From: Galerina marginata
Lineage: Eukaryota; Basidiomycota; Agaricomycetes; Agaricales; Galerinaceae
Length of the DNA stretch: 64,000 nt
NCBI GenBank assembly: GCA_023014335.1
Contig: JAECYW010000021.1
Location: 62,001 to 126,000 of the forward strand
Direction of reading: 5' to 3'
Shown: positions 12,116-49,780 of the stretch, piece by piece
Numbering within the stretch: position 1 is the stretch's first letter
Layout of the letters: each line of letters opens with the position of its first letter
Translations under genes and position numbers: made by a program
The notes under the pieces: model-generated
What the model saw: the letters and a program-made list of their open reading frames with translations, nothing else
Database searches by the model: none
What the model was told of the DNA's origin: nothing

Positions 12116-12254
12116 ACTTAGAAGTGTAGATGAAAGAGCGAAAGAAAGAGAAAGTATAAAAGAACACCAAGTTGACGCAAGGTTGAGGCCACGCGTTAGA
12201 GGCCGCGTTAGAGGCCGCGTGTTTGACGCTTTTGGCTGAAAACCAACCAAAACA

Positions 12255-12333: not shown

Positions 12334-13000
12334 TTCAAAACCTCCGGCACATATCTAAAACTACGATATTATCTACAAAACTAAAACCTCCTCATCTAAA
12401 TCTAAAGCAAAAGTGGATGTAGTACAGTAATAAAATAAAAAATAAAAAATAAAAAATTCAACACCAAAAAATAGCCGACGCGCCAAGCATATAAAGGCAA
12501 ATAAGAACCGATACATTAAAGAAACAAAAAACAGCACTACATCTGAAGAAAAGAGATACCCACAGGGGTAATAATTAATACCAACAGAGGTGGGGAGAAG
12601 AAGGCAGCTCACCGAGTTGGTGCAGGTGCGTTGGTGCAGGTGCGTTGGTGCAGGCATTGCAGGTGCGTTGGTGCAGGCATTGCAGGTGAGGGTGCAGGTG
12701 TTGCAGGTGACTTAGCGATTGCAAGTTGAGATGGCGACTGTTGAAAATCCCAGCAGACGACATCGGATGGCCATCACAGCCAGAGCCTTACATCTGCTGA
12801 AATTCCTTCAGTGCCTCCCAGGGGCAAAGGCTGGGTAAAGCTCCAGGTAGCATGCATTAACATCTTCATACACTCAGAGGTGAAGGCAGTCCTCCCCGGA
12901 GGGGGTGCTCTATCCGCCTATCCGGAAGGACACACATGAGGTAGAGGGAGAGTGGTAGCGCATACAAACAGTGTCAACGTTTATACAAACGTGAACCGTC
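12334..13000. repeat. Intergenic region with a GGTGCAGGTGCGTT minisatellite
   Basis: AT-rich DNA to about 12600, then a minisatellite (about 12612-12711) built from GGTGCAGGTGCGTT and GGTGCAGGCATTGCA variants, followed by unremarkable sequence with a few short GC hairpins near 12890-12930. No gene supported; reading frames over the minisatellite are repeat artefacts. Confidence 0.6.
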
Positions 13001-28420: not shown

Positions 28421-29334
28421 TGTAGCTACATATGTATTTGACTATACAAACAATGAATATCTTTATTCATTTGCTTTGAAAGACAAGCTCAAAGAAGTAG
28501 TAATTTAGAGAGCAATATATGCTATTAGAGAAGTTAAAGAGAGAAAAAAACCTCTAAACTGCAATGCTTAATAGCGCTATCAAGAAGCTCTAACCCTAGT
28601 TTAGGTTTCTTGGCACACAAGCTAAAAATAGACCATAGCAACCGGCATCAAACAACCATTCCCATGCTCAATAAAAATTTCCCACTGTTACAAAAATTTG
28701 TAGACTTTTAATTCAGGGTCAGTCACAAAAAATGAAGCAGTGGGAAAATTTCCAACGTTCGCGTTAGGAATCATTTCTTTCCGCAACCGAGTATAGAAAA
28801 CGAGTTCTTTTACTACGTAAGAACTCGTAAAGGAGCATATATTTATTTGGTATCTGATGGCATCAATTTAGATCACATGACTTTGAATTTGCCTCTATTT
28901 ACATGCTTGTCGCACATTTATGTAATTTTATGGCCTCAAATGCAAACAAATGTAAATATAAGATCTCAGGGCCACTGCACCCATGATATAAAAGGCAATC
29001 AAGATGCAATTGCCTAAAATGGCAGTATTTAGTCAGCCAGCTAATTTTGGACTTAGCAGCATTTCTGCTAAGTTCTTTAATTTATTAATTAATACTAAAA
29101 GGCTTATATCTCAATGAGGAAGGTAGCTAGTCATGTGATTTAAATTTTAGTAGGGTCTAAAAATAGATTGCGTTCTTTTGAAACCCACTTTCCTTTTTGG
29201 GAAATTTTCCCGTCAGCCAAAATTTCTCACCGCCGGCTTTTTTTCACTTTTTTGCATTTTTCTCTGTGGAAAAAATAGCTAGGCACAAAATTTTGATGGA
29301 TTCAGGGTCAAATGGCTTGGCAGCACATTTTTTG
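28421..29334. other. Non-coding; contains an isolated HINE-like tip
   Basis: No gene. A reverse-oriented copy of the palindromic tip found on the HINE-like family lies at 28802-28830 (...TTACTACGTAAGAACTCGTAA), preceded by GCGTTAGGAATCATTTC, which also precedes other tips. The matching 3' end is not visible, so this is a truncated copy. The rest is AT-rich and unassigned. Confidence 0.6.
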
Positions 29335-30581: not shown

Positions 30582-31630
30582 ATGGCTCCTAAGAAAAAAA
30601 ACACTCCAAAAGCAAAGACAGCACCAAAAGAAAAACCTGCAAAGAAGGACTTGGTCAGAGGCCATTGCTGCGCATGGCAAAAACAAGTTCTTACTTTGGG
30701 GTGAGGCAGTGCCTGAAGACTTACACTGTTATTAAATAAATACATATTAAATATGTAAATAATATGTAGTACGCTCAAATCTGAACTGATTGGGATGATC
30801 TTATACTCAAAAAAAGCAGAAAAATGAGGCGGATCTAACAAGCCTAAAATCAGCCCTGATTTTTACAAATTTTTTGATACCAAGATCATAAAAATTGGCC
30901 CAGTAATGGCTGAGATACAAAAACCATGCAGGGTCACTATAGCAGTGGGAGAATTTCGAACGATCGCGTTAGAAACCATTTCCTTCTGCTATCAAGTGTA
31001 GAAAACAAGTTCTTTTACTACGTAAGAACTTGTAATAAAGGAAAGAAGAAGGCTGATCCTAAGCCTGAGAGTGACAAGGAGGAGGTTGAGGTTGTAGATG
31101 AAACTGGGGCATACCAGAAAGTGAAGTACATCCTGCTGCTACTGCTGCTCTTGCTTGAAGAAAGTTTAACCGCAGTTTCTAGCTGGAAGGAGGGATTTGA
31201 ACTTTCTGAGAAGCTGATCAGCACAATTACCAACGACCCTAAGATCAAGCAGGGGTTGTTCCCAGCACCAGGCGGCAACGCTTCATCAGCTAAGGGTGGA
31301 GGTGCCAAGAAGACTCACTGGCACTGGAAGGTAGCTGAGGCACTCTTTCCTAAACATCCCAACTATGCTCAGGCAATATCTTCAGCTCTGGATGAAAAGG
31401 ACACCAAGGTTCACGGAAAGTTGCAGAACGTATGGGGCAAGAAAATCAAAAACCAAATCAAGGCGTGAGTGTCAGTTTGTGGGCAGTTGGTACCAGTAAT
31501 ACTCACTTCAAATATTGTCAGGATGATGCTAATAACCCGGGAGTATATTGCAGTGCTTGGTATGACTGGAGAAGGGATTATTAGAGAGAAAGATATCAAC
31601 ATGGAGGCCAAAAATGAGTTTACGAACAAA
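30582..31630 (+). pseudogene. SANT/Myb-like fungal gene, split by an insertion and 3' truncated
   Basis: ATG 30582 begins MAPKKKNTPKAKTAPK. The frame is cut at 30649 by the HINE-like insertion 30650-31035 and resumes exactly in frame at 31036 (joining ...PAKKD to KGKKKADPK...). The later part has W-x-x-x-F-E-L-S-E-K-L-I-S-T-I, then KIKQGLFPAPG, GGGAKKTHWHW, VAEALFPKHPNYAQAI and VWGKKIKNQIK. I recognise this as a helical, Trp-spaced SANT/Myb-like layout seen in agaricomycete multicopy genes, probably DNA binding. An intron at about 31467-31520 leads to a short exon (MMLITREYIAVLGMTGEG). The gene is then cut at 31630 by another HINE-like tip and its end is lost. A further small intron may lie near 31117-31162. 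Confidence 0.6.
30650..31035 (-). mobile_element. HINE-like element, short type, complete (386 bp)
   Basis: On the minus strand it starts TTACAAGTTCTTACG, has a 10-bp-stem hairpin tip, and ends with GTAAGAACTTGT (complement of the tip), a GCCAT/ATGGC hairpin and an 11-nt tail ending CCAAG. Removing it restores the host reading frame exactly (GGA|TAAAGG), so there is no target duplication. It also shows the empty TA sites of both MITEs described below. Confidence 0.85.
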
Positions 31631-31898
31631 TTACAAGTCCTTACGTAGTAAAAGGACTTGTTCTTATCCAGAGAACAAGCCAAATTGCTTGCAGTGCGAC
31701 CACAGATTTCATTCATTTTCTCTCATGCTGTCAAACTTCACTAAAATTGTGATATCTTGGCCATTTCTTGACCATTTACAATGATTGATATCATAAAGAT
31801 CACACAATTCAGGGCCAACCTGGTCACGTGACCAGGCCATTTTATTACCAAAAAATGTGCCTTTTTATTCCCTTTCCAATGAATCCAAGATCAGCCCA
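31631..31898 (+). mobile_element. HINE-like element, 5' part only
   Basis: Starts with the tip TTACAAGTCCTTACG and continues with CCAAATTGCTTGCAGTGCG, matching the 5' part of the long subfamily in the next, oppositely oriented copy (landmark at 33110-33135). No 3' hairpin end is present; it stops where that copy begins. Confidence 0.7.
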
Positions 31899-33179
31899 CT
31901 TGTGAAGCAGCCATTGCTGCGCATGGCAAATACGAGTTCTTTATGTTTTTATTGTCTAAATAAGTTCATCAGTATCAAATACCCAGCTATTGATTATAAT
32001 TTTTACACTAAATAAAAACAGCATAAAATATTTAAAGACTCAAAACAAATCACACAATTCCTTAGCATTTACAATTAGTAATGAAATCATTCATTTGAAT
32101 AATAAATTGAAGTATTTAAGGAATGGTGCAAATATTTGTCAATATTTGTGAGCATAAATATACTCAGCAGATAACCCAGAAATTTGCAAATTTCACAATA
32201 TGAAATTCATGATATTTGAACAAGAATCCAGAAAGCTATGATATTATAATATATTTAATCTCTTATCTTGAGCAGTTTCTCAGCATATAAGTTATCAGAT
32301 TGCATGGTATAAGTATATTTGGACTCAGAAAAAATTTCTCTTATTTTACAGTTTTTTTTTCGCTTTCCACAACTTTCCCACACTTGGATACAAAATGCTT
32401 ATTTCTTGAATAATACAAACAGAGCCAAATATTTGCAAATAATTATCCACCTATTTTATTGCCCTGAATTTTCTGGATTTTCTGATATTAAAATTATGTA
32501 ATTTGAGTCAGAACTGAGCATGTTAGAGCCTGATTACTGATTTGCAAACTCGTGTCCAAAAGTCATTTCTCAATGAGGAAATTACCTGGTCACATGATTT
32601 TAATATATTTGTAATCAAAAAAATTCAGGCTATTTTCCAATATTATTTCTGGATTCATTACATAACATTCTCACCCCACAGATCAGATCTGCATGCTAAA
32701 AGTCTAATAATCCGATCATGATCGACATTGTGCACAGCATGATGCACGCCAAGATCAAAAATGGGTTTAGTCGACCCACTTTTGATCTCGGCATGCGTCA
32801 TCAGTCAATTAATGATGTGTGATGTCATTAATGTGCAATATCCATACATTTAAATATTTATTTTAGGCATATCTCCATCAAATCTTCACGGATTCTGATG
32901 AAATAAATTGTAAGATATTCAGAAAATTCAGGGCTATAAATCATACTAAATGCGCGTTGCAGGAATCGGACTATTTGGTCACGTATGGGCATTATAAGAG
33001 TTGTTGACAGCATATCAGAGTATTGCATCATTGGTTATCAAGGGAAGTGATGGATCTGATGTCATAAATATAGCAATGTGATGTCATTGATCCCATCAAT
33101 AAATCTGTGGTCGCACTGCAAGCAATTTGGCTTGTTCTCTGGATAAGAACCAGTCCTTTTACTACGTAAGGACTTGTAA
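31899..33179 (-). mobile_element. HINE-like element, long subfamily (1281 bp)
   Basis: On the minus strand: tip TTACAAGTCCTTACG, about 1.2 kb of AT-rich non-coding body, then GCCATGCGCAGCAATGGC and an 11-nt tail ending CACAAG. The body matches 43850-45051 in inverted orientation over about 1.2 kb (e.g. GATGCAATACTCTGA, TGACCTCGGCGTGC-type and TAGCTGGGTATTTG landmarks). No coding capacity. Confidence 0.8.
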
Positions 33180-36100
33180 AAAAAATTTAGAAATAAAGTT
33201 TCCACCTAATTCATTATCATCTTCTCTTTAAAATATAATAGCTTCAAATTTCTGTAAAGATACTTCTTCAAATAAATTTGAAGAAAGTGGATGTGCTGTA
33301 TGTGGAAAATTGACTGTACTCAGTGAACTTCAGAAATTGTCAGAACTTAAACTCAATTTAAATGTTTTGATCCAGACTGGAATAACTCAACCTGAAAGAC
33401 AAACTTCAAATGACTTCCTCAATGATATTGATGGACCTATTCTTGAAAATGACTTGGATAGTATTTGTAAATCATGTCACAATTCAATCTCAAAAGGAAA
33501 AATGCCATTATTTGCATTAGCAAATGGAAAATGGATTCGAAAAGTACCTAATAAACTTCAAAATCTATCTTTTGCTGAGCAACTTCTTGTGGCTAGAGTT
33601 TGTCATAATAGAGGTTTAGTTAGAGTGTCATCTGGAATGCATAAAATGAGAGCAAATGCTATTTCTTTTGCAAATCCAACACCTAAAATATATAGCATAC
33701 TTCCACCACCAGTTGAAGAAATGGATGAAGTCTTAGCATTTATTTATCCTGGTCCATGTAAATCCACTAAGTCAGACTTTGAAAGAATTCCACTTTTAGT
33801 CCGTCATAAAAAGGTTGCAGCTGCACTTGAGTGGTTAAAGTTAAATCATAAAGATTATTTTGACTTGGAAATTTCATATAAAAATCTTAAAGCCTTATCC
33901 AGAAGATACTCCTCCAGTGGTAGTTGACTTTAAAGAATCAACTTCAAACAGAGATCCAAAATCAATTGCTATAAATGATATGGAAGATGAAACTGGAACT
34001 GAAAATGGACCTTGTCCATTTGTAGTACATGGATTGACTGGTAAAAAATATTCAACAAAAAGTCTTAAAGCTTTAAAAGCCATTGCTCTTAAACATTTGA
34101 CTGATAATAAAAAAATTCTTGCAGTTGAACATGAAAAAAATCCACAATCTATCTATAATAATCCACAGCTTTTCCCTCAAATGATGCCCTGGTTATTTCC
34201 ATATGGACTTGGTGGAATTGGTAACAAACTTCAGAAAAATCATATCTCAGACTTAGCTCATAAAAGACATTTACTGATGTATTATGATAAAAGATTTCAA
34301 ACAGATCCACAATTTCCACTTATTGCTTTTAATCATGAACAAATTAAAGAAAGTACAACAGCTGGATATTTATTAGCAGACAAGCCAAAGTTTGATCAGA
34401 TTTCTAAAAGACTAATGGAAGTTGATATTGGAGTTCTGACAGATTTAATCAAGTGGATGGAAGAAGGTGAAAGAGTTAAGCCTGATTCTGATGAAGAAAA
34501 ACTTTGCTTTCAATTAATTAAATAAAGACTTAGATCATGTTGGAGGATTTGTTAAAGGTTCAACTACTACTAAAAAGTATATGCGGAATGAAATCTGGTC
34601 TTTAATTTCATATCTGGGTGCACCTTTATGGTTTATTACATTTTCTCCAGCTGACAATAAACATCCAATAAGTTTATACTTTGCAGATACTCAAGAAAAA
34701 TTTAGTCCTCTTTTAAGAGATGAAAATGAAAGGTTTAGATTAATAGCTCATAATCCTGTAGCTGGTGCAAGATTTTTTCATTTTATGTGTGAAATGTTCA
34801 TTAAACATATACTTGGAGTTAAAGAAAGTCATTCTGGAATTTATGGAAATACAAATGCATATTATGAAACTGTTGAGCAACAAGGAAGATTGACTTTACA
34901 TATGCATATGCTTTTTTGGTTAAAAGGTGCATTATCACCTCAGGAAATAAGGGATAAAATTATGGATCCAACTTCAGAATTTCAAAAGCAAATAGTTGAA
35001 TATTTAGAGAGTGTTCATATTGGAGAATTTATGACTGGAACTCAGGAAGAAGTTGGGCATAAAATTGAGCTTGAAAAAACTCAGAATAAGAATTACCAAG
35101 ATCCAACCCAGACTTTACCTGATCCACCACCACCAATCTGTAAAAACAAATCCTGTGATAATGAGAACTGTCCTGAGTGTAAAAACCTTGAAACTTGGTG
35201 GCATAAATTTAAAAATATTACAGATGACTTGATATTCAGATCTAATGTTCATATCTGTAGAGGTTTTAAGTCAGATAAAAAAGCTGTCAAAAAAGATAGA
35301 CCTGGTTGTATTAAATTACTATTAATAAACATGGAAATTGTAAAGCCAGATTTCCTAGAGAACTTTTTGAACAGAGTGAAGTTGATCCTAAAACTGGTGC
35401 ATTAAATATTAAAAAAGGTGAAGCTTGGATTAATACTTTGACTCCATTAGTAACATATCTTTTGAGATGTAATTCAGATATAACAAGCTTGCTTTCTGGA
35501 ACAGCAATTAAGGCAATTGTGGCCTATATTTCAGATTATGTTACTAAACCTGGTCTTAAAACTTATAGCATATTTGATACTATTAAAAGTGTCTTTAATA
35601 GAAATTCTGAAATAATTGGTGGGTCATTGAAAAGAAAAGAAAAAGCTAGATGGCTTATTACTCAAACTGTAAATTCTTTGACTTCTAAGATGGAAATTGG
35701 TGGTCCAATGGCTGCGTTATATTTATTAGAAAATTCTGACCACTATATTAGCCACAAATTTATATCTGTTTATTGGAAAAATTATGTTAGAGAGGTTTCA
35801 AAGTCTTGGAGAACTGAAGAAGATTGAGAAGAAATAATTCCTGAAAAGCTTGTGATTCAAAAAGATAAAGATGGAAAATATATTGGATTCTCAGCAGTAC
35901 ATGATTATATATATAGGCCTAAGATTTTTGAAAACAAAACTTTATATAAATGGGTCCAAATGGCATCCAGAATTAAATCTTCAGCTTCTAAAAAGCCAAT
36001 ATGACCAAATCTGATGATGAACTTGATTTGTTTAACCATGAATCATCTGAAAATATCAAGTCCAAAATATCTGAATCTAAAAAATGCAAAGCTACAGTTG

Positions 36101-36316
36101 AAACTGAAGAATCTGAGGATGAACTGAATATTTATTCAGATGAAAATGAATACTTTGATGAACTTGTTTCAGATAAAGATACTGAATCTGAAGTTGAAGA
36201 GGAAGAGGAAGAAATGTTAGGCTCAAAATTACATTTGTTTTTGAAAGATCATCTACTTTATAAAACTCATAAAGTCCAGTTTGATGAGAGAAAGAAAAAT
36301 ACTGTGCCTAATTTTG
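33180..36316 (+). pseudogene. Decayed Helitron RepHel fragment
   Basis: Aligns by eye to residues of about 480-1500 of the 1453-7491 protein, clearly diverged. Motifs kept: ESGCAVCGKLT, DKRFQTDPQFPLIAFNHEQI, MRNEIWSLISYLGAP, the HUH motif LTLHMHMLFWL (about 34893-34925), AYISDYVTKPG (about 35522-35555) and TLYKWVQ. Frameshifts or stops lie near 33220, 33890, 34523, 35320, 35825 and 36001. The helicase half is absent. Both ends abut HINE-like tips exactly (33179 and 36317). The divergence points to a different Helitron lineage from the one at the left. Confidence 0.9.
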
Positions 36317-37495
36317 TTATAAGTTCTTACATAATAAAAGAACTTGTTTTCCAGCTTGCATAGCAGGCAGAAATGGTTCCTAACAGAACCAATGGAAATT
36401 CTCCCACTGATATAGCGACCCTGCATGGTTTCTGTATCTCAGCCATTACTGGGCCAATTTTAATGATCTTGGTATTAAAAAATTCATAAAAATCAGGGCT
36501 TTCATGTGGAATGTGTATCCAGGGATGATTAGGTCATGTGAGTTGTTCACACGAGCCAAAAAGCAGAAATTTGCGTAAATTTACAGTTGAAACATATTTC
36601 AGTAAGCTAGATATGCTAAAATATGTTGCTCAGACCAATCTAGAATAATGTACAAATATTTACATATGTTTTGCAATGATGTTATGGTGTTCAAATCAGG
36701 CAAACAGTCAGAGTGACTGGATAACCCATAAAAGGCACACCAAACATTGCAAAACATGACCAAATAACTTGGAAATAATGTTTTAGAACCTTACATAATC
36801 AAACTCACAGCAGGACTTTGTGCAATTGTCTTGGGATCAGTGAGACACCAACTTGGACCAAAATATTCTCAGGGATATATCATGTGATATGTGTGCACAG
36901 ACCATCTCTTAGGTAAAAAAACATAATTAGTATTTTTATTTTATTTCAATGCCTTTAAAATCTCTCAATATAGCTTATTTACTGTGTCTCTCAAATAATA
37001 TTCCGCATTTGGTGAGTCACATAAAGATGCGACAATATGTATGTGATATCATCTTTTAGCCCTGACTTTTCTGATAATTACACACTGTATTTCAAGGCAA
37101 TCTGATAAAAACTAAGCGACATATGAATTAATCTTATTACAAGTTCTTACGTAGTAAAAAAACTTGTTTTCCAGCCTGCATAGCAGGCAGAAATGATTCC
37201 TAACGCGAACATTCGAAATTCTCCCACTGCTATAGTGACCTTGCATAGTTTCTGTATCTCAGCCATTACTGGGCCAATTTTTATAATCTTGGTATCAAAA
37301 AATTCGTAAAAATCAGGGCTGATTTTAGGCTTGCTAGAATGGCCTCATTTTTCTGCTTTTTTTAAGTATAAGATCATCCCAATTGGTTCAGATTTGAGCG
37401 GACTATGCATTATTTACTTATTTAACCTTTATTTATGACTTATCTTGAAAGTAAGAACTTGTTTTTGCCATGCACAGCAATGGCCTCTGACCAAG
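36317..37495 (+). mobile_element. HINE-like composite with two 5' tips (1179 bp)
   Basis: Tips at 36317 (TTATAAGTTCTTACA) and 37137 (TTACAAGTTCTTACG), one 3' end at 37495 (GCCATGCACAGCAATGGC plus an 11-nt tail ending CCAAG). The first part matches 39478-40332 and the second matches the short type. The 3' end directly abuts the first base of the copia LTR. No coding capacity. Confidence 0.8.
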
Positions 37496-37818
37496 TGCTA
37501 AATATGAGGAACTCAGTGTAAAGGACAGATGGGCTATGAAGAGCTGAAGTCCAGAGTGAGTAACTAATAATATTGTGAAATGACTATATACTTGCCTGAA
37601 GTCCCCAGTGAGTAACTGGGGACTTCTGGCAACTAGCTAAGCCTTTATATATGAAAATGAGCAATATACCCAAATGAGGAAAGAAGTGATAAGAATCTGA
37701 TAAAGATCAAATGAAGAACTACATAAATGAAGTATGTTTTGATAAGGATCTAATCTAATCTGATAAGATAAGATAGAAAGAATAGAATGTTGTGGAGAGT
37801 GGGAAAGCAGCTTTAACA
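37496..37818 (-). repeat. Copia 3' LTR (323 bp)
   Basis: On the plus strand it begins TGCTAAATATGAGG and ends GCTTTAACA, giving the TG...CA ends of an LTR. The polypurine tract on the minus strand touches it. The start and an internal part (GAGCTGAAGTCC..GAGTGAGTAACT) recur at 42867 and 45052, which fixes it as a repeat. Confidence 0.8.
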
Positions 37819-37863
37819 CACCCTCCTGATCTGGCCAGTCTCCAGAACACAAGAAATATTGGC

Positions 37864-38466
37864 CTAAGGCCTAAGACCCATTTGTTCTCTGCAAAATGCA
37901 ACTTTGGAAGGTGAAAGGGGTTTTGTCAGAAGATCTGCCACTTGTTCATCAGTTGAGATGAAAGATGGTGAAATAAGTCCAACAGCAACAGCATCTCTGA
38001 GCCAGTAAAACCGCAAGTCCAAGTGCTTCATGCGCCCATGGTGTTCAGGATTTTTAGAAACACTGAGAGCACCTTGGTTGTCAACATGCATAATAGAAGG
38101 CTGGATAACAGTGTGCCCAAATTCGTGAAGAATATTGTGCATCCAACATATCTCCTTGCCAGCCTCTACTGCAGCTACATATTCAGCCTCTGTTGTAGAC
38201 AATGCAATAATGCCTTGAAGCTTGCTTAACCAACCAATTGAACCACCAGCCATAGTGGTAATATAGCCACTTGTGGACTTTCCAGTATCAACAGAATCAC
38301 CATGAGCAGAGTCAGTAAATGTAATGAATGGTTCTTGACCATGTTCACCACAATACTGTAACTTGTACTCAAGAGTGCCTTTAAGATATCTGAATAGGTG
38401 CTTGACAGCAGCCCAGTGTTTGGGGCCAGGATTAGAGTTGAAGTATGCCAAATAGGCCACAGTGTA
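37864..38466 (-). pseudogene. Copia RNase H domain
   Basis: Reads YTVAYLAYFNSNPGPKHW, VKHLFRYLKGTLEYKL, FTDSAHGDSVDTGKSTSGY, GIIALSTTEAEYVAA, HVDNQGALSVSKNPEHHGRM, KHLDLRFYWLRDAV, and DLLTKPLS before the stop: a textbook copia RNase H. The N-terminal side is cut at 38466 by the HINE-like insertion that separates it from the RT. Confidence 0.92.
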
Positions 38467-38717
38467 TTGGTCAGAGGCTATTGCTGCGCATGGAAAAAAC
38501 AAGTTCTTACTTTGGGGTGAGTCAGTACTTAGAGAACTGTGATTAAATAGTGGATATTAAATGAGGAATTAAATAAATAAATGATAAATAAGCAAATAAT
38601 GAACAGTTTGCTCAAATCTGAACCAATTGGGATGTTCTTATACTCAAAAAAAGCAGAAAAATGAGGCGGTTCTAACAAGCCTAAAATCTGGCCCTGATTT
38701 TTATGATTTTTTTGATA

Positions 38718-39444
38718 AGATAGGGAGCGTCAGGAACCAGCACCCTTATGTAAGCAAGAAATGACACTCAACGGCAACCTCAATTGCTTCCACAACAATT
38801 CTCTTAACCCATTTTTGGCTTCATGGAAAGGTGTAGGACAGCCTTAGGAACAGTTCTATGGAAAAAAATTTGCTCAAAGTGAGATACAAGTTGCGAAATT
38901 TTGGTTGGAAATATTTTCACCCGAAAAGCTTCAAAAAGCTTCAAAACGTTCAGAAAAATAACAGACAGAAAAAGTTCAAAATCCGACCTCAACATTTTGC
39001 CGCTTATATAATTAATGCACGTGACCTCCTGCCTAACCTGGAACATGTATTGGCGATGGTGAGGGCATACAAAAAGGCCACAAAAAGCATTTAAACACAT
39101 TGATACACAATTATACAATATTTCTGCACATCTGAGTACATAGGTCAATGTTCTGTAGCAATTATCACTTGATATGCGGTCAGAAAGGTATCTCTAACAA
39201 CACGGCCAAATAATGATGGCGGTTTAATCACCTCCGATCGATCAAAATCACCTACTTGCACCCAGTGCTCTTGCGGATTCGGAACGCGGGGTGATGGTAA
39301 AAAAATATAAATTGAATCTGATCTACCAACACCAGAATTATACGCAAAAAAAACTTTTTGGATTTTCCGAAGGCAAGATTTTGCCAGGCTTGGCGCTTAC
39401 TAAGCAGCTTATATAAGGGTGCTGGTTCCTGACGCTCCCTATCT
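38718..39444. mobile_element. Tc1/mariner-type MITE (727 bp) with TA duplication
   Basis: Terminal inverted repeats start AGATAGGGAGCGTCAGGAAC and run about 35 bp to CTTATGTAAGC. TA flanks both ends (38716-38717, 39445-39446). The unoccupied sequence TTTTGATACCAAGAT occurs in other copies of the host repeat (e.g. near 30874). No transposase domain was found in its frames. Confidence 0.85.
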
Positions 39445-39477
39445 TACCAAGATTATCAAAATTGGCTCAGTATACAA

Positions 39478-40729
39478 TTACAAGTTCTTATGTAGTAAAA
39501 GAACTTGTTTTCCAGCCTGCATAGCAGGCAGAAATGGTTCCTAACACAATCATTCAAAATTCTCCTACTCATACAGTGACCCTGCATGGTTTCTGTATCT
39601 CAGCCATTACTAGGCCAATTTTGATGATCTTGGTATCAAAAAATTCCTAAAAATCAGGGCTTTCATGTGGCATGGGTATCCAGGGATGATTAGGTCATGT
39701 GACCTGTTCACACAACCCAAAAAGCGCAAATTTGTGTGAATTTACACTGAAAGCAGATTTCAGTGAGCTAGATATGCTAAAATGTGTTGCCCAGACCAAT
39801 ATAGGATAATGTACAAATATTTACATATGTTTTGCAATGATGTCATGGTGTCCAAATCAGGAAAACAGTCAGCTCAACTTGGTGAAAATCCAAAAATTGG
39901 TGTTAAACTGACTGGATAACCCATAAAAGGCACACCAAACATTGCAAAACATGACCAAATAACATGGAAATAATGTTCTAGAAGCTTACATAATCAAACT
40001 CACAGTAGGACTTTGTGCAATTGCCTTGGAATCAGTTGATGCACCAAGTTAGAACAAAATATTCTCAGGGATATGTCATGTGATATGTGTGCACAGACCA
40101 TCTCTTAGGTAAAAAAAACCATTATCAGTATTTTTTTTTTATTTTAATGCCTTTAAAATCTCTCAATATAGCTTATTTACTGTGTTTTCAACAATATTCC
40201 GCATTTGGTAAGTCACATAAAGATGTGACAATACACATGTAGCACCATCTTTTAGCCCTGATTTTTCTGATAATTACACACTATGTTTCAAGGCAATCTA
40301 ATAAAAACTAAGTGACATATGAATTAATCTTGTTACAAGTTCTTACGTAGTAAAAGAACTTGTTTTCCGGCCTGCATAGCAGGCAGAAATGGTTCCTAAC
40401 GCAATCATTCGAAATTCTCCCACTCATACAGTGACCCTGCATGGTTTCTGTATCTCAGTCAATACTAGGCCAATTTTGATGATCTTGGTATCAAAAAATT
40501 TCTAAAAATCAGGGCCTTCCTGGTCACATGACCAGGCAATTTTAGGTTTACCAGATCCACCTCATTTTTCTGCTTTTTTTGAGTATAAAATCATCCCAAT
40601 AGCTTCAGATTTGAGTGGACTACATATTATTTACTTATTTAACATGTATTTATGTAATACTCTTGGTATGTCTCCATCCCCAAAGTAAGAACTTGTTTTT
40701 GCCATGCGCAGCAATGGCCTCTGACCAAG
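39478..40729 (+). mobile_element. HINE-like composite with two 5' tips (1252 bp)
   Basis: Tips at 39478 and 40333, one 3' end at 40729. Same architecture and similar sequence as 36317-37495, with an extra stretch of about 70 bp near 39870-39925. Flanks are A at the 5' side and T at the 3' side. Confidence 0.8.
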
Positions 40730-40896
40730 TTTTTTTGATACCAAGATCATCAAAATTGGCTCATTAATGGCTGAGATACAGAAACTATGCAAGGTCACTG
40801 TATGAGTGGAAGAAATTTGAATGCTTGTGTTAGAAACCATTTTTGTCTGCTATGCAGGCCGGAAAACAAGTTCTTTTACTATGTAAGAACTTGTAA

Positions 40897-41825
40897 AGCA
40901 ATGTCTGGGTGGGTCATTGTAGCCAAGTACTGCAAAGAGCCAACTGCACTAAGGTATGGGACATTGCACATTTGTTCCACCTCTTCAGCATTTTGAGGAC
41001 CCATGGTAGCCATTGGTGTTTGGACAGGGTGGCAGTCAGACATACCATACTTCTCCAACATGTCCAGAATGTACTGGCGTTGATGGAGTGTGATAGTCCT
41101 GGTTTGACAGTCTCTGCCAACTGCAACACCAAGTAAAAACTGTGTGGGTCCCAAATCACGAAGTGTAAAATGTGCAGCCAGTTGCTTTACAGCTTTGTCA
41201 ATAGCAGCATTAGACTTGGATGCATAGGTAATGTCATCAATGTAAATGGGAACAATGATCTTGACAACTCCATCTGAATAGATGTAAACAGAGCGATCAG
41301 ATTCAATGTGTTTATAACCTATTTTAGTGAGTGCTTTATGCAGTTTGATGTTCCATTGATGTCCAGCTTGTTTCAACCCATAAAGTGGTTAGCAGAGCTT
41401 GAGTACCATATTAGGACCACCTTGGTGGAATCCTTCAGGTAGAAGCATGTAGATGTCTTCCTCAAGGTCACCTTGGGTGAATGCAGCAGAAATGTCAACA
41501 GAACAAAGTCCCAAGTCACCAATTGCAGCCAGAGCAATAATCAAGCGCAAAGTGGCAGAACGGAATGTAGGAGCAAAAACCTCATTGAAATCAATACCAG
41601 GACATTGACTGTATCCTTTGGCAACAATTCAGGCTTTGTAGCACTCTATAGTACCATCTGCATTATGCTTGACTCTAAAGACCCAACCAGAACCAATTGC
41701 CTTTTGACCAGGTGGGAGTTCAACTATTTCCCAGGTTTTGTTCTGCATCAGAGTGTTGTACTCTGTGACAGTAGCCTCTTCCCAATATTGTGCATCATCA
41801 CCTTTCATTGCCTGTTTGTATGTTT
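40897..41825 (-). pseudogene. Copia reverse transcriptase domain
   Basis: Reads WEEATVTEYNTLMQNKTWEIV, IGSGWVFRVKHNADGTIECY, IVAKGYSQCPGIDFNEVF, SVDISAAFTQGDLEEDIYML, LYGLKQAGHQWN, the catalytic VPIYIDDITYAS, FLLGVAVGRD and SAVGSLQYLATMTHPDIA. Two nonsense codons: TGA at 41631-41629 (YKA*IVAKG, most simply CGA to TGA) and TAA at 41391-41389 (before PLYGLKQAG). The 5' side ends at about 41825 against the LINE poly(A). Confidence 0.92.
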
Positions 41826-42866
41826 TTTTTTTTTTAAAAAATCAATAATTTATATACCGGTGCGCGAAAGCAGTCCAGTTGCCTAACTAATACAAATCCC
41901 CAGTCGAAAGCGCACAATAAACTACTAATCCCCGAACCAGACCTGAACTCATCTGCTTCTTCCGAATCCTTCCAACGGCGTCCTTTGTGCGCCAGGCCTT
42001 TGCTAGAAGGGACGGACCACCTAACCGCCCAGTCCTGCGAGGGAGGGACGGCCCCCATCGCTATGCCAATACCACGTAAGGACCGAAGCCCAAACATCTC
42101 CTGGCAGCTGCAGCTGCTGCACTCTCTCCGCCTTCCAAACCTGACACCCACTTTCAGATCCGGACCCAACCCGAAAACCTTCATCCACCCATGCCTTGAC
42201 GACCAGAAAACTCATACCAGCAAAAGGAATAAGCAGGTGCGGGGATAAGGCCCCCAACCAATCCGACGTGCCAACGCCTGACCGCGCAAGCCAAAAACAC
42301 GGCTACCATTCGAGATATGGGTTGGAAAGTAACCACTGGTCGTAGCAAATGCAACCGGGTACGAAACGCGAAGAATGCACGGAACAACACCACCCCATCC
42401 TTGGCCTGTCAACCTTGTCCGAAGGAGGGATTGACCCTCCCCCAACTGACGCGACCCGGGAGAAGGTATTAAGGTCTCTCTGAGTGACGTGCCCGCATGG
42501 AACGCCTTACCCAATGCCCTGCGGTGCTGCCGCCTGGCAGGCGAATAAGAACGCCTTGGGGTTCTCAAGTAAAAACATCAACAATTTGACAACAAACCAT
42601 GTAAACGATCGGTTGGGGATTGTCTATCATACCGCGGACAGTACTTTAGGATGTGTGAGCGGGTCTCGCAAGAAGCGCCGCAGCGGGAATGCAGCGGGGG
42701 CAGCCATGAGGCTCTTGGATGTTAAACTGGTTGTAGTACGAACCAATTGGCGCATGATTCAGTATACACCTGCACAAGCGCGCAAAGGAAGTGGCATCGC
42801 CTTCGGATTCGCGAATATAAGGCCCTGTTAAAGCAGGCGAGCATGGGAACATGTGAGGCAGCAGAG
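41826..42866 (-). mobile_element. 5'-truncated Tad1-like LINE, 3' end
   Basis: GC-rich segment inside the AT-rich copia element. On the minus strand it carries the C-terminal end of a LINE ORF2: TSFARLCRCILNHAPIGSYY, NQFNIQEPHGCPRC, then after a frameshift CETRSHILKYCPRYDRQSPT and LLENPKAFLFA before a stop near 42510. This matches the GHAPxGxYY..F...CxC...TRxHIL..CP.Y end of Tad1-type elements. About 650 bp of 3' UTR ends in a poly(A), seen as T-runs at 41824-41838. No clear target duplication found. Confidence 0.75.
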
Positions 42867-42896
42867 TGCCAAATATGAGGAACTCAGTGTAAAGGA
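42867..42896 (-). repeat. Copia 5' LTR, first of three pieces
   Basis: TGCCAAATATGAGGAACTCA and the next ten bases match the start of the LTR at 37496. The LTR continues after a solo LTR at 43042-43050 (AAGGACAGA) and after a HINE-like composite at 45052-45111 (TGAGCTATAAAGAGCTGAAG...), then stops. Confidence 0.8.
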
Positions 42897-43041
42897 TGTT
42901 GGAGTTTGTGATCCCGATTCGGGTATTTACAGTTGTTATCACCAGATACTTTGTCCTTCCTCTTGTTTGTTCTCCTCCTTTACCTCTTACCACCATGTTG
43001 TAGCACGCTTATGCGATACCTCTGCCTTTCATATTCCAACA
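42897..43041. mobile_element. Small solo LTR (145 bp) with a 5-bp target duplication
   Basis: Begins TGTTGGAGTTTGTG, ends CATATTCCAACA, and is flanked by AAGGA on both sides (42892-42896 and 43042-43046). The paired LTR at 37496 shows the uninterrupted AAAGGACAGAT. It is short for an LTR, fitting a TRIM-type or other small LTR element. Confidence 0.85.
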
Positions 43042-43050
43042 AAGGACAGA

Positions 43051-45051
43051 TTACGAGTTCTTACATTAGTAAAGAACTTGTTCTTATTCTGACTTCCACT
43101 CATTTTCCTTGCAGTGCGACCACATTTTTTGTTCATTTTCTCTCACAGTTTCATTTTTTTTGTAGTCGTTGTTCCTAGCTACTACAAATTTTTGTAGTCT
43201 TTTAATTCAAAAAATGAAACTGTGGGAACAGTTTTGATGCCATCATTTATAAGTGCCTTCTTTTTGATCAATCAATTTCCTTAGCAACCTCGGTGATCGG
43301 CTTCATCGGGTCAATGTTTGAATCAACTCCGAATCAAATTAATCTAAATTTGGAATTAGTCTGCTTACAGACTGTGCCTGCTGATTGATATCTATTCCTG
43401 TCCTTCACACAGTTACGAGTTCTTATGTTAGTAAAAGAACTCGCTCTTATTCTGACTTTCCGCTAATTTGCTTGCAGTGTGACCACATTTTTCGTTCATT
43501 TTCTCTCACAACTTCACTTTTTTTGTAGTCTTCGTTCCTAGTTGCTACAAATGTTTGTAGTCTTTTAATTCAAAAAAATGAAGTTGTGAGAACACATTTG
43601 ATGACAACTTTGATTGATTGGTGATGCATCATTTTCCCTAGTAACCATCTGTTGCATGTTGCCAATGTGATTGATTCCCAAATAATACATCATGCAATTG
43701 CACAACTGCTAAGCCTTCTTAATAAAAACTGATCCCATTAATTTTCCAAGTAATATCTTTTTTTTTTCAGGAAAATTGGTGCAGAATAGCATAAAATACA
43801 TCAATCCTCAGTATTGATTGCTTAAAGTAACACATTCTAAATTTAGCTTGATTGATTGATGGGATCAATGACATTACATTGCTATATTCATGACATCAGA
43901 TCCATCACTTCTCTTGGTAACCAATGATGCAATACTCTGACATGCTGTCAATGACTCTTATAACGCCCATACATACGTCACCAAATAGTCCAATTCCCAC
44001 AACGCACATTTAGTATGATTTATAGCCCTGAATTTTCTAAATATTTTACAATTTATTTCATCAAAATCCGTGAAGAATTGATAGAGATACGCCTAAAATA
44101 AGTATTTATGTGTATGAATATTGCACATTAGTGACATCACGATCCTTAATTGACTGATGACGCACGCCGAGGTCAAAAGTGGGTCAACTATAGTCATTTT
44201 TGACCTCGGCGTGCATCATGCTGTGCACAATGTCAATCAAATTATTAGGCTTTTAGCATGCAGATCTGATCTGCAGGGTGAGAATGTTATGTAATAAATC
44301 CGGAAAAAATATTGAAAAATAGCCTGAATTTTTCTGATTACAAATGTATTAATATCATGTGACTAGGTAATTTCCTCATTGAGAAATGACTTTTGGACGC
44401 GAGTCTACAAATCAGTAATCAGGCTCTAACATGCTCAGTTATGACTCAAATTACATAATTTTAATATCAGAAAATCCAGAAAATTCAGGGCAACAAAATA
44501 GGTGGATAAGTATTTGCAAATATTTGGCTCTGCTTGTATTATCCAAGAAATAAGCATTTTGCATCCAAGCGTGGGAAAGTTGTGGAAAGCAAAAGAAATC
44601 TGTAGAATAAGAGAAATTTTTTCTGAGTCCAAATATATTTATACCATGCAATCTGATAACTTAATTGTCAAGTAAATGCCCAAGATAAGAGGTTAAATAT
44701 ATTATAATATCATAGCTTCCTGGATTCTTGTTCAAATATCATGAATTTTGTATCATAAAATTCGCAAAATTCTGTGTTATCTGCTGAGTATATTTATGCT
44801 CACAAATATTGACAAATATTTGCACCATTCCTTAAATACTTCAATTTATTATTCAAATGAATGATTTCATTACTAATTGTAAATGCTGAGGAATTGTGTC
44901 ATTTTTTTTTTGAGTCTTTAAATATTTTATGCTGTTTTTCAGTCTAAAAATTATAATCAATAGCTGGGTATTTGATACTGATGAACTTATTTAGACAATA
45001 AAAACATAAAGAACTTGTATTTGCCATGCACAGCAATGGCTGCTTCACAAG
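43051..45051 (+). mobile_element. HINE-like composite, long subfamily, two 5' tips (2001 bp)
   Basis: Tips at 43051 and 43413 (both TTACGAGTTCTTA...), one 3' end at 45051 (GCCATGCACAGCAATGGC plus a tail ending CACAAG). Flanks ACAGA|TGAGCTAT join to match the other LTR (ACAGATGGGCTAT, 37525-37537), proving insertion between A and T with no duplication. The body from about 43850 is an inverted relative of 31899-33130. Confidence 0.85.
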
Positions 45052-45111
45052 TGAGCTATAAAGAGCTGAAGTCCGGAGTGAGTAACTGATGATATTGTGA
45101 AATGACTATAT

Positions 45112-45153
45112 GCTTCCATGGCTTTTTCCATATGGTCATGGTGGTATAGGTCA
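45112..45153 (+). pseudogene. Helitron ORF scrap, continued after an insertion
   Basis: CCATGGCTTTTTCCATATGG and on encodes PWLFPYGHGGIG, matching the 1453-7491 Helitron. The match resumes at 46003 (ATCAATAATGAACA, SIMNN) after the HINE-like insertion and fades by about 46060. Confidence 0.8.
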
Positions 45154-46002
45154 CTTGGTCAGAGGCCATTGCTGTGCATGGCAAAAACAAGTTCTTACTT
45201 TGGGGTGAGGCAGTGCCTGAAGACTTACACTGTTATTAAATAAATACATATTACAGCGGTTTGCAAAAAGCTTGACAGTAACGGCCCGGGAAAGAAAGAA
45301 AATAAGATTAACCCTAGATTAGCACTTAGCGCTAATTTAGCGCTCCTGCCCTTCCAAATGGACAGAAAAAAAGGATATGGCTCTGGGAGTGTATCCTAAA
45401 AGCAAACGGAGGTTTATGAGACCGTTTTGCCGCACCAGAATTGTCAAATGATGCGTGAATGGGTGGGAACTTGATTTAGGGTTACTTAGGGCTGCCCATG
45501 TATCTCATGGCCGCAACACGTATAGAAAAAATGCAAAGCTCGTCTGAAAAAGCTTATAGATTGATACAGACGGCCTATCTAAAACATTCTACAAAATTTG
45601 GTAGGTGTTTTTACCAGCCAGAAGTATGAGAACCGGCCAAACCCTATGGCGGGGTTTCTTTTCTTTTCTTTCTTTCCCGGGCCGTTACTGTCAAGCTTTT
45701 TGCAAACCGCTGTAAATATGTAAATAATATGTAGTCCGCTCAAATCTGAACTGATTGGGATGTTTTTATACTCACAAAAAGCAGAAAAATGAGGCGGTTC
45801 TAACAAGCCTACTAGGAAAGCCCTGATTTTTACAATTTTTTTGATACCAAGATCATCAAAATTGGCCCAGTAATGGCTGAGATACAGAAATCATGCAGGG
45901 TCATTATAGCAGTGGGAGAATTTCGAATGTTTGCGTTAGAAACCATTTCCTTCTGCTATCAAGTGTAGAAAACAAGTTCTTTTACTACATAAGAACTTGT
46001 AA
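45154..46002 (-). mobile_element. HINE-like element, short type, carrying a MITE
   Basis: The 3' end CTTGGTCAGAGG is at 45154 and the 5' tip ends at 46002. Without the MITE it is about 388 bp, almost the same as the 30650-31035 copy. Flanks GGTCA|ATCAATAATG join to the sequence found uninterrupted in the left Helitron (complement of 5032-5050). Confidence 0.88.
45254..45712. mobile_element. Tc1/mariner-type MITE (459 bp) with TA duplication
   Basis: Terminal inverted repeats begin CAGCGGTTTGCAAAAAGC and extend about 47 bp to a GGCCCGGGAAAGAAAG tract. TA flanks both ends (45252-45253 and 45713-45714). The empty site ACATATTAAATATG is present in the host-repeat copy at 30745-30760. No transposase encoded. 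Confidence 0.9.
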
Positions 46003-46059: not shown

Positions 46060-46659
46060 TTCAACTTTTGCAAAGAAACTTTAGCTCTCTTTGAGCACTT
46101 CAGTGACCCACCAAACATAACCTACTAGGTTGATTAATTTCTGATAGAAAATACAATCTAGAGGAGGCTCAGAAAGATTTTGTAGAAACATATTTCAGCC
46201 AAATATTCTTTTTTCTCCCGAAACATTCCTCTATACTGAAAAGATTATTTTTCAAAAATGAATAATGTTTCTTGCTATAAATATTTTGTACATAAATATA
46301 GAAATATTTATGTGACGGGCAGAAAGGTTTTCTTGTTTCAGAATATATTTCTTCTTAGAGAATATATTTGTTGCTGAAGGGGTGTCAGGGGTCCTTTCAG
46401 TGCCAAAAGTTTTCTGGGCATTTCTGGTCCTTGCTAGGATAGGTAAGAGCCCCACAGGTGTAATACAGCAAGTAATACCAGGAAGAGCAGGCTAAAAAAG
46501 GAATAAAGCAATGTACTAAATTATAATTATCAGAAGAGCAAAAAATATTACCATTTAATTTGTTACTGCTGTATATTAATAGTAACATGACAATTAAAGT
46601 AACTTAGTTTACAATGAGATTAATACAAATATGAAAGAGAATTAATTCCCTTATGTCTT
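46060..46659. other. AT-rich unassigned stretch
   Basis: No gene and no clear repeat, apart from a few AATATATTT runs near 46341-46370. It separates the transposon cluster from the ubiquitin-derived array. Confidence 0.4.
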
Positions 46660-49640
46660 ATATGTTTGCTTTGATATTGTCTATGACATTTGAAAGCTGA
46701 CAGCTATATTGTCCTGGATCTTTGCTTTGCCATTGTCTATTTTCCTTGACCTGGATCTTAGCCTTGACGTTATCAATGGTATTGGAACAGTCGCGGCTAT
46801 ATTGTCCTGGATCTTAGCCTTGACGTTATCAATGGTGTCGGAAGACTCAGCTTTCTTGTCCTGGATCTTAGCCTTGACGTTATCAATGGTATTGGAAAAG
46901 TTGCGGCTATATTGTCCTAGATCTTAGCCTTGACGTTATCTATGGTGTCGGAAGACTTGGCTTTCTTGCCTTGACATTGTCAATGGTATTGGAAAAGTCG
47001 CGGCTATATTGTCCTGGATCTTAGCCTTGACGTTATCTATGGTGTCGGAAGACTTGGCTTTCTTGCCTTGACATTGTCAATGGTATTGGAAAAGTCGCGG
47101 CTATATTGTCCTGGATCTTAGCCTTGACGTTATCAATGGTATTGGAAAAGTCGTGGCTATATTGTCCTGGATCTTAGCCTTGACATTATCTATGGTGTCC
47201 GAAGACTCGGCTTTCTTGTCCTGGATCTTTGCCTTGACATTGTCAATGGTATTGGAAAGTCGCGGCTATATTGTCCTGGATCTTAGCCTTGACGTTATCT
47301 ATGGTGTCGGAAGACTTGGCTTTCTTGCCTTGACATTGTCAATGGTATTGGAAAAGTCGCGGCTATATTGTCCTGGATCTTAGCCTTGACGTTATCTATG
47401 GTGTCGGAAGACTTGGCTTTCTTGCCTTGACATTGTCAATGGTATTGGAAAAGTCGCGGCTATATTGTCCTGGATCTTAGCCTTGACGTTATCAATGGTA
47501 TTGGAAAAGTCGTGGCTATATTGTCCTGGATCTTAGCCTTGACATTATCTATGGTGTCCGAAGACTCGGCTTTCTTGTCCTGGATCTTTGCCTTGACATT
47601 GTCAATGGTATTGGAAAGTCGCGGCTATATTGTCCTGGATCTTAGCCTTGACGTTATCTATGGTGTCGGAAGACTTGGCTTTCTTGCCTTGACATTGTCA
47701 ATGGTATTGGAAAAGTCGCGGCTATATTGTCCTGGATCTTAGCCTTGACGTTATCTATGGTGTCGGAAGACTTGGCTTTCTTGCCTTGACATTGTCAATG
47801 GTATTGGAAAAGTCGCGGCTATATTGTCATGGATCTTAGCCTTGACGTTATCTATGGTGTCGGAAGACTTGGCTTTCTTGCCTTGACATTGTCAATGGTA
47901 TTGGAAAAGTCGTGGCTATATTGTCCTGGATCTTAGCCTTGACGTTATCAATGGTGTCCGAAGACTCGGCTTTCTTGTCCTGGATCTTTGCCTTGACATT
48001 GTCAATGGTATTGGAACAGTCACGGCTATATTGTCATGAATCTTCGCTTTGACATTGTCAAAACATTTTCACACTGAGGTCTAAAAATATTTTCAGGCAC
48101 AAAAAATATTTTCCCACTTAGTTCTGAAAATATTTTTTGGTTCTTAGCCTTGACATTATCTATGGTATTGGAACAGTCGCGGCTATATTGTCCTGGATCT
48201 TAGCCTTGACGTTATCTATGGTGTCGGAAGACTTGGCTTTCTTGCCTTGACATTGTCAATGGTATTGGAAAAGTCGCAGCTATATTGTCCTGGATCTTAG
48301 CCTTGACGTTATCTATGGTGTCGGAAGACTTGGCTTTCTTGCCTTGACATTGTCAATGGTATTGGAAAAGTCGCAGCTATATTGTCCTGGATCTTAGCCT
48401 TGACGTTATCTATGGTGTCGGAAGACTTGGCTTTCTTGCCTTGACATTGTCAATGGTATTGGAAAAGTCGCGGCTATATTGTCCTGGATCTTAGCCTTGA
48501 CGTTATCAATGGTATTGGAAAAGTCGTGGCTATATTGTCCTGGATCTTAGCCTTGACATTATCTATGGTGTCCGAAGACTCGGCTTTCTTGTCCTGGATC
48601 TTTGCCTTGACATTGTCAATGGTATTGGAACAGTCACGGCTATATTGTCATGAATCTTCGCTTTGACATTGTCAAAACATTTTCACACTGAGGTCTAAAA
48701 ATATTTTCAGGCACAAAAAATATTTTCCCACTTAGTTCTGAAAATATTTTTTGAATCTTAGCCTTGACATTATCTATGGTATTGGAACAGTCGCGGCTAT
48801 ATTGTCCTGGATCTTAGCCTTGACGTTATCCATGGTGTCGGAAGACTTGACTTTCTTGCCTTGACATTGTCAATGGTATTGGAAAAGTCGCGGCTATATT
48901 GTTCTGGATCTTAGCCTTGACATTATCAATGGTGTCCGAAGACTCGGCTTTCTTGTCCTGGATCTTTGCCTTGACGTTATCTATGGTGTCCGAAGACTCG
49001 GCTTTCTTGTCCTGGATCTTAGCCTTGACATTATCAATGGTATTGGAAAAGTCGTGGCTATATTGTCCTGGATCTTAGCCTTGACGTTATCTATGGTGTC
49101 CGAAGACTCGGCTTTCTTGTCCTGGATCTTTGCCTTGACATTGTCAATGGTATTGGAACAGTCACGGCTATATTGTCATGAATCTTCGCTTTGACAAAAC
49201 ATTTTCACACTGAGGTCTAAAAATATTTTCAGGCACAAAAAATATTTTCCCACTTAGTTCTGAAAATATTTTTTGAATCTTAGCCTTGACATTATCTATG
49301 GTATTGAAACAGTCGCGGCTATATTGTCCTGGGTCTTCGCTTTGACATTGTCTATGGTGTTGGAGGACTCAACATTCTTGTCCTGGATCTTAGCCTTGAC
49401 ATTATCTATGGTATTGAAACAGTCGCGGCTATATTGTCCTGGATCTTCGCTTTGACATTGTCTATTTTGTTTGTCCTGGATCTTAGCCTTGACATTATCT
49501 ATGGTGTCAAAACAGTCGCGGCTATATTGTCCTGGATCTTCGCTTTGACATTGTCTATAGTATTGGAGGACTTGCCTTGCTTGACATTATCTATTGTATT
49601 GGAAAAGTTGCAGCTATATTGTCCTGGATCTTCGTCTTCA
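46660..49640 (-). repeat. Ubiquitin-derived tandem satellite (54-bp units)
   Basis: On the minus strand almost every 54-bp unit reads S-(D/N)-T-I-D-N-V-K-A-K-I-Q-D-(K/N) plus four linker residues, which is residues about 20-33 of ubiquitin (SDTIENVKAKIQDK) and nothing else of the protein. Roughly fifty units. Many carry a shared 13-nt deletion (after GTCAAGGCA) that shifts the frame, so no long ORF survives. An 80-90-bp spacer with ACATTTTCACACTGAGGTC occurs three times (about 48061, 48673, 49195), giving a higher-order repeat. It spreads as DNA, not as a protein gene. Confidence 0.9.
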
Positions 49641-49780
49641 AATAGAAAAAACATTTTCATAACAAGCTCTAAAAGTATTTTCATTCACACATTTCTTGTT
49701 ATCACTAAATAAATAGTTTTTTCTTTCATAAACAAATTTTACAATTTATTATATATATTTATACCACCTATTATTTTATT

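Follow-up and report, generated by a model that had tools for sequence, protein, structure and literature searches.

Short elements with Helitron2-type termini in Galerina marginata and their same-ended giant partners encoding a Rep-PIF1 protein

A 64,000-nt stretch of the Galerina marginata genome (C14:62001-126000; hereafter the window) harbours a set of short elements with a 5' hairpin tip and a 3' palindrome. By the structure of their termini, these small elements and their autonomous partners are Helitron2. The small copies are very probably non-autonomous transposons of the rolling-circle type with a Helitron2 structure; what most likely moves them is the Rep-PIF1 protein encoded by giant elements (~33 kb) with ends of the same kind. 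We describe these ends, their exact junctions, the same-ended autonomous partners, and composites in which several tips share one 3' end. The genome searched comprised 69.3 Mb in 43 contigs; contigs and sampled loci are denoted by C and L numbers, and a slash between flank and element marks the junction. In a preliminary description, the small copies had been regarded as a non-autonomous, rolling-circle-type family with asymmetric inverted repeats and a 3' palindrome, which is supported by the ends and closures reported here, and had been assigned to Helentron-like elements, a label that we do not retain.

The arm of the 5' tip, AAGAACTTGT, occurred 36 times in the window with at most one mismatch, versus 7.5 expected matches and a maximum of 15 in 100 shuffled sequences. 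Genome-wide, the exact arm gave 1495 + 1602 matches, versus 180 + 182 for the reversed arm used as a control. The tip is composed of TT and a 10-bp arm, a 9-nt loop, and a second 10-bp arm. As single-stranded DNA, it is predicted to fold with -7.8 kcal/mol (z -4.8), and the z values of the predicted hairpin ranged from -3.8 to -5.5 across three tips. A third copy of the arm is located ~33 nt from the 3' end and is followed by the palindrome GCCAT/ATGGC and a tail ending in CAAG. These features, listed already in the preliminary description, were present where it had placed them and far above chance. Elements of family A start with TTACAAGTTCTTACGTAGTAAAAGAACTTGT and end with GTAAGAACTTGTTTTTGCCATGCGCAGCAATGGCCTCTGACCAAG. 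The three arms were exactly ACAAGTTCTT, AAGAACTTGT, and GTAAGAACTTGT in 39 of 46 elements. Between the main families, the hairpin arm and the 3' repeat vary in concert.

The flanks of these elements are strongly constrained. An orientation filter retained 80 of the 160 raw tip matches in the sampled loci, and TT directly preceded the tip in 78 of these 80. The same loci contained 80 palindrome matches; exclusion of two chance matches (tails ATCAACAAATC and CAATTGCGTCG) left 78 ends, with T as the next base at 77. The exception was a window copy with the tail CCAAT. Across the genome, the next base after the exact sequence AGCAATGGCCTCTGACCAAG was T at all 436 sites; A, C, and G never occurred there. 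The base preceding the element, tallied for 38 of 46 outer tips after exclusion of tips in the fixed context TTAATCTTG, was A in 20, G in 13, T in 5, and C in 0 cases. The earlier statement that the 3' flank is T thus holds, while that of a 5' flank of A or T was too narrow because G precedes 13 of the 38 outer tips. The insertion rule is D/TTA...CAAG/T, without duplication or loss and with an ambiguity of one T. As had been proposed, the ends are not of the canonical 5'-TC/CTRR-3' type. Canonical Helitrons lack a 5' hairpin; the ends found here are TTA and CAAG, with a 5' hairpin.

Four insertions in the window had been described as precisely closable, and all four closures were reproduced. 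Family A element A1 (30650-31035, minus strand, 386 bp), which possesses both tip and 3' end, is inserted between A and T in a host-like reading frame; its removal gives the open frame MAPKKK...AKKDKGKKKADPK. Since no paralogue of its flanks was found among the sampled loci and the minus-strand frame is open too, the reading frame is the one line of evidence for this closure. Element A2 (38467-40896, minus strand), also of family A, resides in a copia gene and contains nested insertions. Its removal restores the copia frame PDIAYTVAYLA and gives a match with 0 gaps to the paralogue in L073; its tail is CCAA versus CCAAG, one base short. Nested in A2 is a composite family A element (39478-40729, plus strand) with tips at 39478 and 40333 and one 3' end. 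The A2 interior also holds a nested inverted-repeat insert (ATAGGGAGCGTCAGGAACCAGCACCCTTAT) at about 38717-39445. Family B element B1 (43051-45051, plus strand, 2001 bp), inserted between A and T, closes at AAAGGACAGA/TG on empty sites in three paralogues, namely window 37529/37530, L066, and L041. A solo-LTR-like (long terminal repeat) insert with the termini TGTTGG...CCAACA and a 5-bp duplication, AAGGA, adjoins B1 upstream (about 42897-43045) and at first masked this closure in BLAST searches. Family A element A3 (45154-46002, minus strand) interrupts a Rep gene fragment and closes on the Rep gene of the window over 63 bp (positions 5086-5024, junction near 5042; 96.8% identity, 0 gaps). 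A3 proper is ~386 bp long, because the interval includes a nested insert at about 45252-45713 with ~50-bp inverted repeats starting TACAGCGGTTTGC.

Paralogues spanning the joined flanks of further elements were sought in the window and the sampled genome loci, and at most two best matches were inspected per pair. The 61 element records joined represented 46 outer and 15 inner tips. A spanning paralogue was obtained for 19 of them, of which 18 were informative; in the remaining pair (no. 8) the 3' neighbour is another element. At the junction itself, all 18 closures were free of gaps in the matches inspected; two of them displayed a small gap elsewhere, one had many gaps elsewhere, and one was only 70.7% identical. 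Several of the matching empty sites are themselves located in other copies of these families or within the same locus. The absence of target duplications, as claimed earlier, was therefore observed at the four window sites, in the 18 joined flanks, and in three giant elements described below.

The preliminary description had called for a search for a Rep-helicase partner with the same ends. Elements with matching ends were found to code for a DUF6570-Rep-PIF1 protein of about 2,600 amino acids, and one of them begins in the window. The element in L069 starts with TTATGAGTCCTTTGATTTATCAAAGACTCAT (three copies aligned) and ends with GCCATGCGAAGCAATGGCCCACTACACCAAG/T, that is, with the same palindrome as the small elements and with CAAG/T. 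Its protein comprises 2,665 amino acids with DUF6570, Helitron_like_N, and PIF1 domains. Five further 3'-end stretches yielded three additional autonomous families (four copies), which terminate in CTCTAAACAAG (L083, L085), TGCTTTGCAAG (L088), and TTACAAACCAAG (L087), each with a palindrome of the same type followed by T; no such end was present in the stretch examined from L086. Family A most resembles the CTCTAAACAAG family, referred to here as the giant family (85% at the 3' end); over their first 100 bp, four copies of family A agree with the giant at 77-84 positions. Family B is closest to the TGCTTTGCAAG family, with 83% identity in a comparison restricted to the 3' end.

Searches allowing at most one mismatch revealed 28 3' ends (CTCTAAACAAG) and 84 5' tips (TTACGAGTTCTTACGTAGTAAAAGAACTCGTTTTC) of the giant family in the genome. 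Of these 28 ends, 24 are preceded by a same-strand Rep match at a distance of no more than 15 kb, versus 1 of 28 with the strand flipped. This analysis, which drew on 70 of 120 Rep matches, gave a Rep-to-end distance of 5,622-5,623 bp for 10 copies. Measured to the nearest upstream tip, the five copies that have the longest frames (2,626-2,661 amino acids) are 30,724, 32,616, 32,888, 33,329, and 33,331 bp long. One could suppose that the giants are not units and that small elements and Rep genes are merely neighbours in repeat-rich blocks. These blocks are indeed dense with copies. A same-strand tip was recorded no more than 80 kb upstream of 20 of the 28 ends, yet flipping the strand still gave 14 of 28, with some tips at 30.7-35.5 kb, so that tip-to-end distance is weak evidence by itself. 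This explanation is nevertheless highly improbable given the constant Rep-to-end distance, the two copies of 33,331 and 33,329 bp on C6 that lie in different flanks, and the exact closure of three ~33-kb intervals on empty sites. On C12, removal of the 32,888-bp interval leaves flanks that align with copia sequences, with restoration of the frame ALSTTEAEYVAA, and that match window positions 38096-38295; the copia frame restored by one giant closure reads ALSTTEAEY. For the 32,616-bp interval on C23, empty sites are provided by window positions 42326-42517 and by L068, and for the 33,329-bp interval on C6 by a repeat of its own flank (88-89%). None of the three shows a duplication, and two use empty sites inside the window. 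Nine giant copies were flank-joined in total; the other six had no spanning site in the sampled loci. These closures are strong evidence for units of ~33 kb.

The window contains the first 28.8 kb (1-28830, minus strand) of a giant copy with a total length of 46 kb. Its tip occupies positions 28800-28830 (C14:90796-90830), while its 3' end lies outside the window at C14:44774-44802, with Rep in the same orientation. The length of 46 kb is apparently due to enlargement by insertions; parts of this copy are 98-100% identical to giant copies on C14, C39, and C12. The Rep-helicase gene (1453-7491, minus strand) encodes DUF6570, Helitron_like_N, and PIF1, with a PF14214 match at C14:66354-67001, and is C-terminally shorter than the frames of 2,626-2,661 amino acids in other copies. 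No tip-like hairpin was recognised within the first 13 kb; the matching tip, at 28830, is separated from the Rep domain by 23.8 kb on the upstream side. A cargo gene for a SET-domain protein of 359 amino acids (27341-28417, plus strand; PF00856, E 6.5e-9) is also present. Its region has 87-90% matches at 14 other places and lies 8.5-10 kb inside the giant-family tip in several copies versus 0.4 kb in the window; the cargo order therefore differs between subfamilies. Compared to the copy in L074, which has one stop, the SET gene displays a ratio of non-synonymous to synonymous substitutions (dN/dS) of 0.31 over 356 codons. Positions 12272-12315 of the giant form a perfect palindrome with 18-bp arms, whose outer flanks, GGGTTAGGG and CCCTAACCC, are telomere-repeat-like. 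The surrounding segment (12001-16000) is GC-rich (0.54-0.65) in an otherwise AT-rich giant and includes direct repeats at 15033-15937.

In total, 547 protein relatives were found. Helitron_like_N and DUF6570 were found in all 120 relatives listed, as was the Rep motif [V/I]EQQGR[L/V][T/A/M]LHxH, which reads VEQQGRLTLHLH in the window copy. A two-tyrosine motif, AYISDYVTK, occurs downstream of the Rep motif in L069; its tyrosines are putative active-site residues of Rep. In the genome, the Pfam model Helitron_like_N matched 120 times, and the scores of these matches fell into two classes. The higher class (at least 150 bits) comprised 19 matches and the partners belong to the lower one. The motif RGLPHxH was present in all four higher-class loci inspected (L009, L012, L025, and L026) and absent from the partner clade. 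No Pfam match to an apurinic/apyrimidinic (AP) endonuclease was obtained in the 2,665-amino-acid L069 protein at E values up to 1, and none was included in the precomputed domains of the 120 relatives listed of 547. The L069 protein as scanned also matched no cut-and-paste transposase family. The C-terminal part could be aligned in 96 of the 120 relatives listed and contains invariant C, H, and D residues as well as two CxxC pairs (nine sequences); the Cys motif was recognised in 69 and the His motif in 36 of 85 long relatives. A fold search with a weak model favoured USP-type proteases for L069 residues about 2405-2665, which faintly suggests that the C-terminus resembles a protease of this type. 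Helentrons carry VTD or OTU deubiquitinases according to PMC9741609, and a USP-like domain would be a different type of protease, perhaps serving a similar purpose.

Several observations weigh against the proposed rolling-circle system of small elements and giants. Transposition itself was not observed. Three further elements mix arm forms, which weakens the argument from matched arm changes, and these changes are supported by few families. In one autonomous family, the 3' repeat pairs poorly with its own tip (AAGGACGAAT versus ATGAGTCCTT). The 3' palindrome is predicted to be no more stable than shuffled sequences (z -0.14 in family A and -0.90 in the giant family), although its sequence is conserved. 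One window copy lacks the final G of the tail. Because the boundary can slide by one T, an element beginning with TA and including the 3' T would be an equivalent delimitation. No autonomous 3' end examined is identical to the family A end CTCTGACCAAG, the nearest differing by ~15%. Finally, for 42 of the 61 flank pairs, no paralogue across the junction was present in the sampled loci.

The published systems are compared here as far as the accessible parts of the cited papers describe them. The small elements share palindromic subterminal repeats, a 3' palindrome, insertion without duplication, and the status of short relatives of an autonomous element with Helentron-associated interspersed elements (HINEs; PMC4067079), and could be true HINEs if the AP endonuclease of the partner had been missed or lost. 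We consider this very improbable. Neither the L069 protein as scanned nor the 120 relatives listed showed an AP endonuclease, the similarity of the C-terminus, according to a weak model, is to a USP protease, and the target is D/T rather than TT or T-rich on both sides. The diagnostic Rep motif is RGSxHxH in Helentrons and RGLPHxH in Helitron1 (PMC4067079), and the Rep motif of the partners lacks the S of the former. Helentron membership was rejected on these grounds. Helitron1 was rejected as well, given the ends TTA and CAAG, the 5' hairpin, and the absence of RGLPHxH from this clade. Short length, high number, and inverted repeats would also suit miniature inverted-repeat transposable elements (MITEs) of a cut-and-paste transposon, with target duplications too short or too eroded to be seen; a 1-bp duplication of T is formally the same as none. 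The repeats are asymmetric, however, and the 3' tail lies outside them. The 18 closures show no duplication beyond the ambiguous T, and Rep-PIF1 is encoded between matching ends, where no transposase family was matched. An origin from MITEs thus has a negligible probability, and cut-and-paste movement was rejected, since no target duplication was found at the closed sites and no DDE transposase in the protein scanned. Both had been named in the preliminary description as observations that would speak against its reading.

Helitron2 is defined by a 5' repeat 0-2 bp from the end with a 5' hairpin and a 3' repeat 20-30 bp from the end (PMC3627910). The elements described here agree with it in the 5' hairpin, the 3' repeat preceding a 3' hairpin, the 5' T, and the general absence of duplications. 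They differ in that the 3' repeat is located slightly further from the end (~33 nt), in ending with CAAG at D/T instead of TTTT before T/C, and, with regard to Helitron2 as described in that source, in autonomous copies of ~33 kb and a protein that combines DUF6570 with a USP-like C-terminus. In Fusarium oxysporum, FoHeli elements (PMC5148889) similarly possess asymmetric repeats, a 5' hairpin, many 5' termini with one 3' end, self-insertion, and a boundary ambiguity of one T, but are about 5-11 kb long and end in ATTTT or CTCCTGT; FoHeli1 and FoHeli2 target TNAT/A. The HELPO Helitrons of Pleurotus (PMC4289320) are likewise fungal, with a 3' hairpin followed by CTTG or CTRR and insertion between A and T; they differ in having proteins of ~1,400 amino acids and lengths of 1.5-13.7 kb, and no 5' hairpin is described in the accessible part of that paper. 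Another mushroom Helitron2 with an extra gene was reported from Agaricus bisporus (PMC12730594), where this gene codes for a TET/JBP dioxygenase; here, it is a SET-domain gene.

We propose the following mode of transposition. Rep would nick the element at the 5' tip, and the helicase would peel off one strand up to the 3' inverted repeat, palindrome, and CAAG. The freed strand would then be circularised or transferred and inserted beside a T; for FoHeli1, a circular intermediate was reported (PMC5148889). The 5' arm, being able to pair either with its hairpin partner or with the 3' repeat, may mark both the start and the end of the element for the enzyme. Where one element sits inside a relative, the enzyme may begin at the outer 5' tip and halt at the first 3' end, giving rise to multi-tip composites. 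For FoHeli, it was proposed that elements insert into one another and are then read from the outer tip up to the first 3' end encountered (PMC5148889), which would explain such composites. Among the 46 complete elements, 14 had two tips and one had three, each with a single 3' end; many internal tips share the context ATTAATCTTG. Direct junctions of the form CAAG/TTACAAG occur at C12:3615925 and C4:1117197. In C1:338685-343140 (L008), six copies of the tip arm follow each other at an exact, satellite-like spacing of 891 bp; no 3' end was found in the first unit of this array.

The tips and ends of the giant family are concentrated: each of 15 contigs has a single block of them, and these blocks include 111 of the 112. 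Defined by those same tips and ends, the blocks sum to 4.4% of the genome. Only 2 of 19 canonical Helitron Rep matches fell within the blocks, even after widening by 50 kb and addition of the C5 block, while 17 of 19 were outside. The first 100 of the 436 family A ends were on C1, C4, C5, C6, and C9, with none on C2, C3, C7, and C8; C4 has a small second family A cluster at 718-725 kb. In Agaricus bisporus, a single large repeat cluster per chromosome is taken as the likely centromere (PMC7473861), and by analogy the pattern of the giant family may be called centromere-like. Families with the same type of Rep also occur outside the blocks, e.g. at C34:875247, C6:199057, and C23:3900160, which argues against a block rule for the whole clade. 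It is tempting to combine these features into a lineage of giant (~33 kb), autonomous, cargo-carrying Helitron2 whose transposase ends in a USP-type deubiquitinase rather than an AP endonuclease and which, occurring with its hundreds of satellites in just one block on each chromosome, builds centromeric repeats including tandem arrays of 5' tips. We regard this combined scenario as tentative and somewhat doubtful, because no more than 36 of the 85 long relatives showed the His motif and because some families of this clade also occur elsewhere than in the blocks.

Fungal Helitrons are typically 6-7 kb and up to 14 kb long, maize elements with captured gene fragments reach 39 kb, and whole-gene capture is described as exceptionally rare (PMC6431247). 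Rolling-circle elements as such are known, but an enzyme-encoding one of ~33 kb in a fungus looks unusual. Our literature search, from which subscription papers were mostly excluded, revealed no autonomous fungal Helitron2 of ~33 kb, no paper mentioning DUF6570, and no USP domain in a Helitron. With intervals of ~33 kb that close exactly, a transposase frame of ~2,600 amino acids, and a recurrent SET gene, a rolling-circle counterpart of large cargo transposons becomes testable. Since the terminal arm is present three times, the elements also provide a natural means of testing how both ends are read by the enzyme, and a family limited to one block per contig could mark regional centromeres in a genome lacking centromere annotation.

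The window contains additional copies and repeats. The minus strand carries, at 31899-33179, a family B element whose tip (33149-33177) is of the variant form GTCCTT/AAGGAC; its palindrome is at 31910-31927 and its tail reads TGCTTCACAAG. The segments 31893-33105 and 43850-45057 are 91% identical. A composite family A element (36317-37495, plus strand) has tips at 36317 and 37137 and one 3' end. The segment 33556-35953 (plus strand) is a decayed second Rep-helicase copy with 67-68% identity to the window Rep gene and a PF14214 match containing five stops; PF14214 was also recognised in the piece 34581-35402. Positions 46654-49690 are occupied by a dense tandem-repeat array of ~3 kb with self-matches at many offsets. 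An open reading frame of 707 amino acids at 49781-51904 encodes a KDZ (Kyakuja-Dileera-Zisupton) transposase (PF18758, E 4.7e-62).

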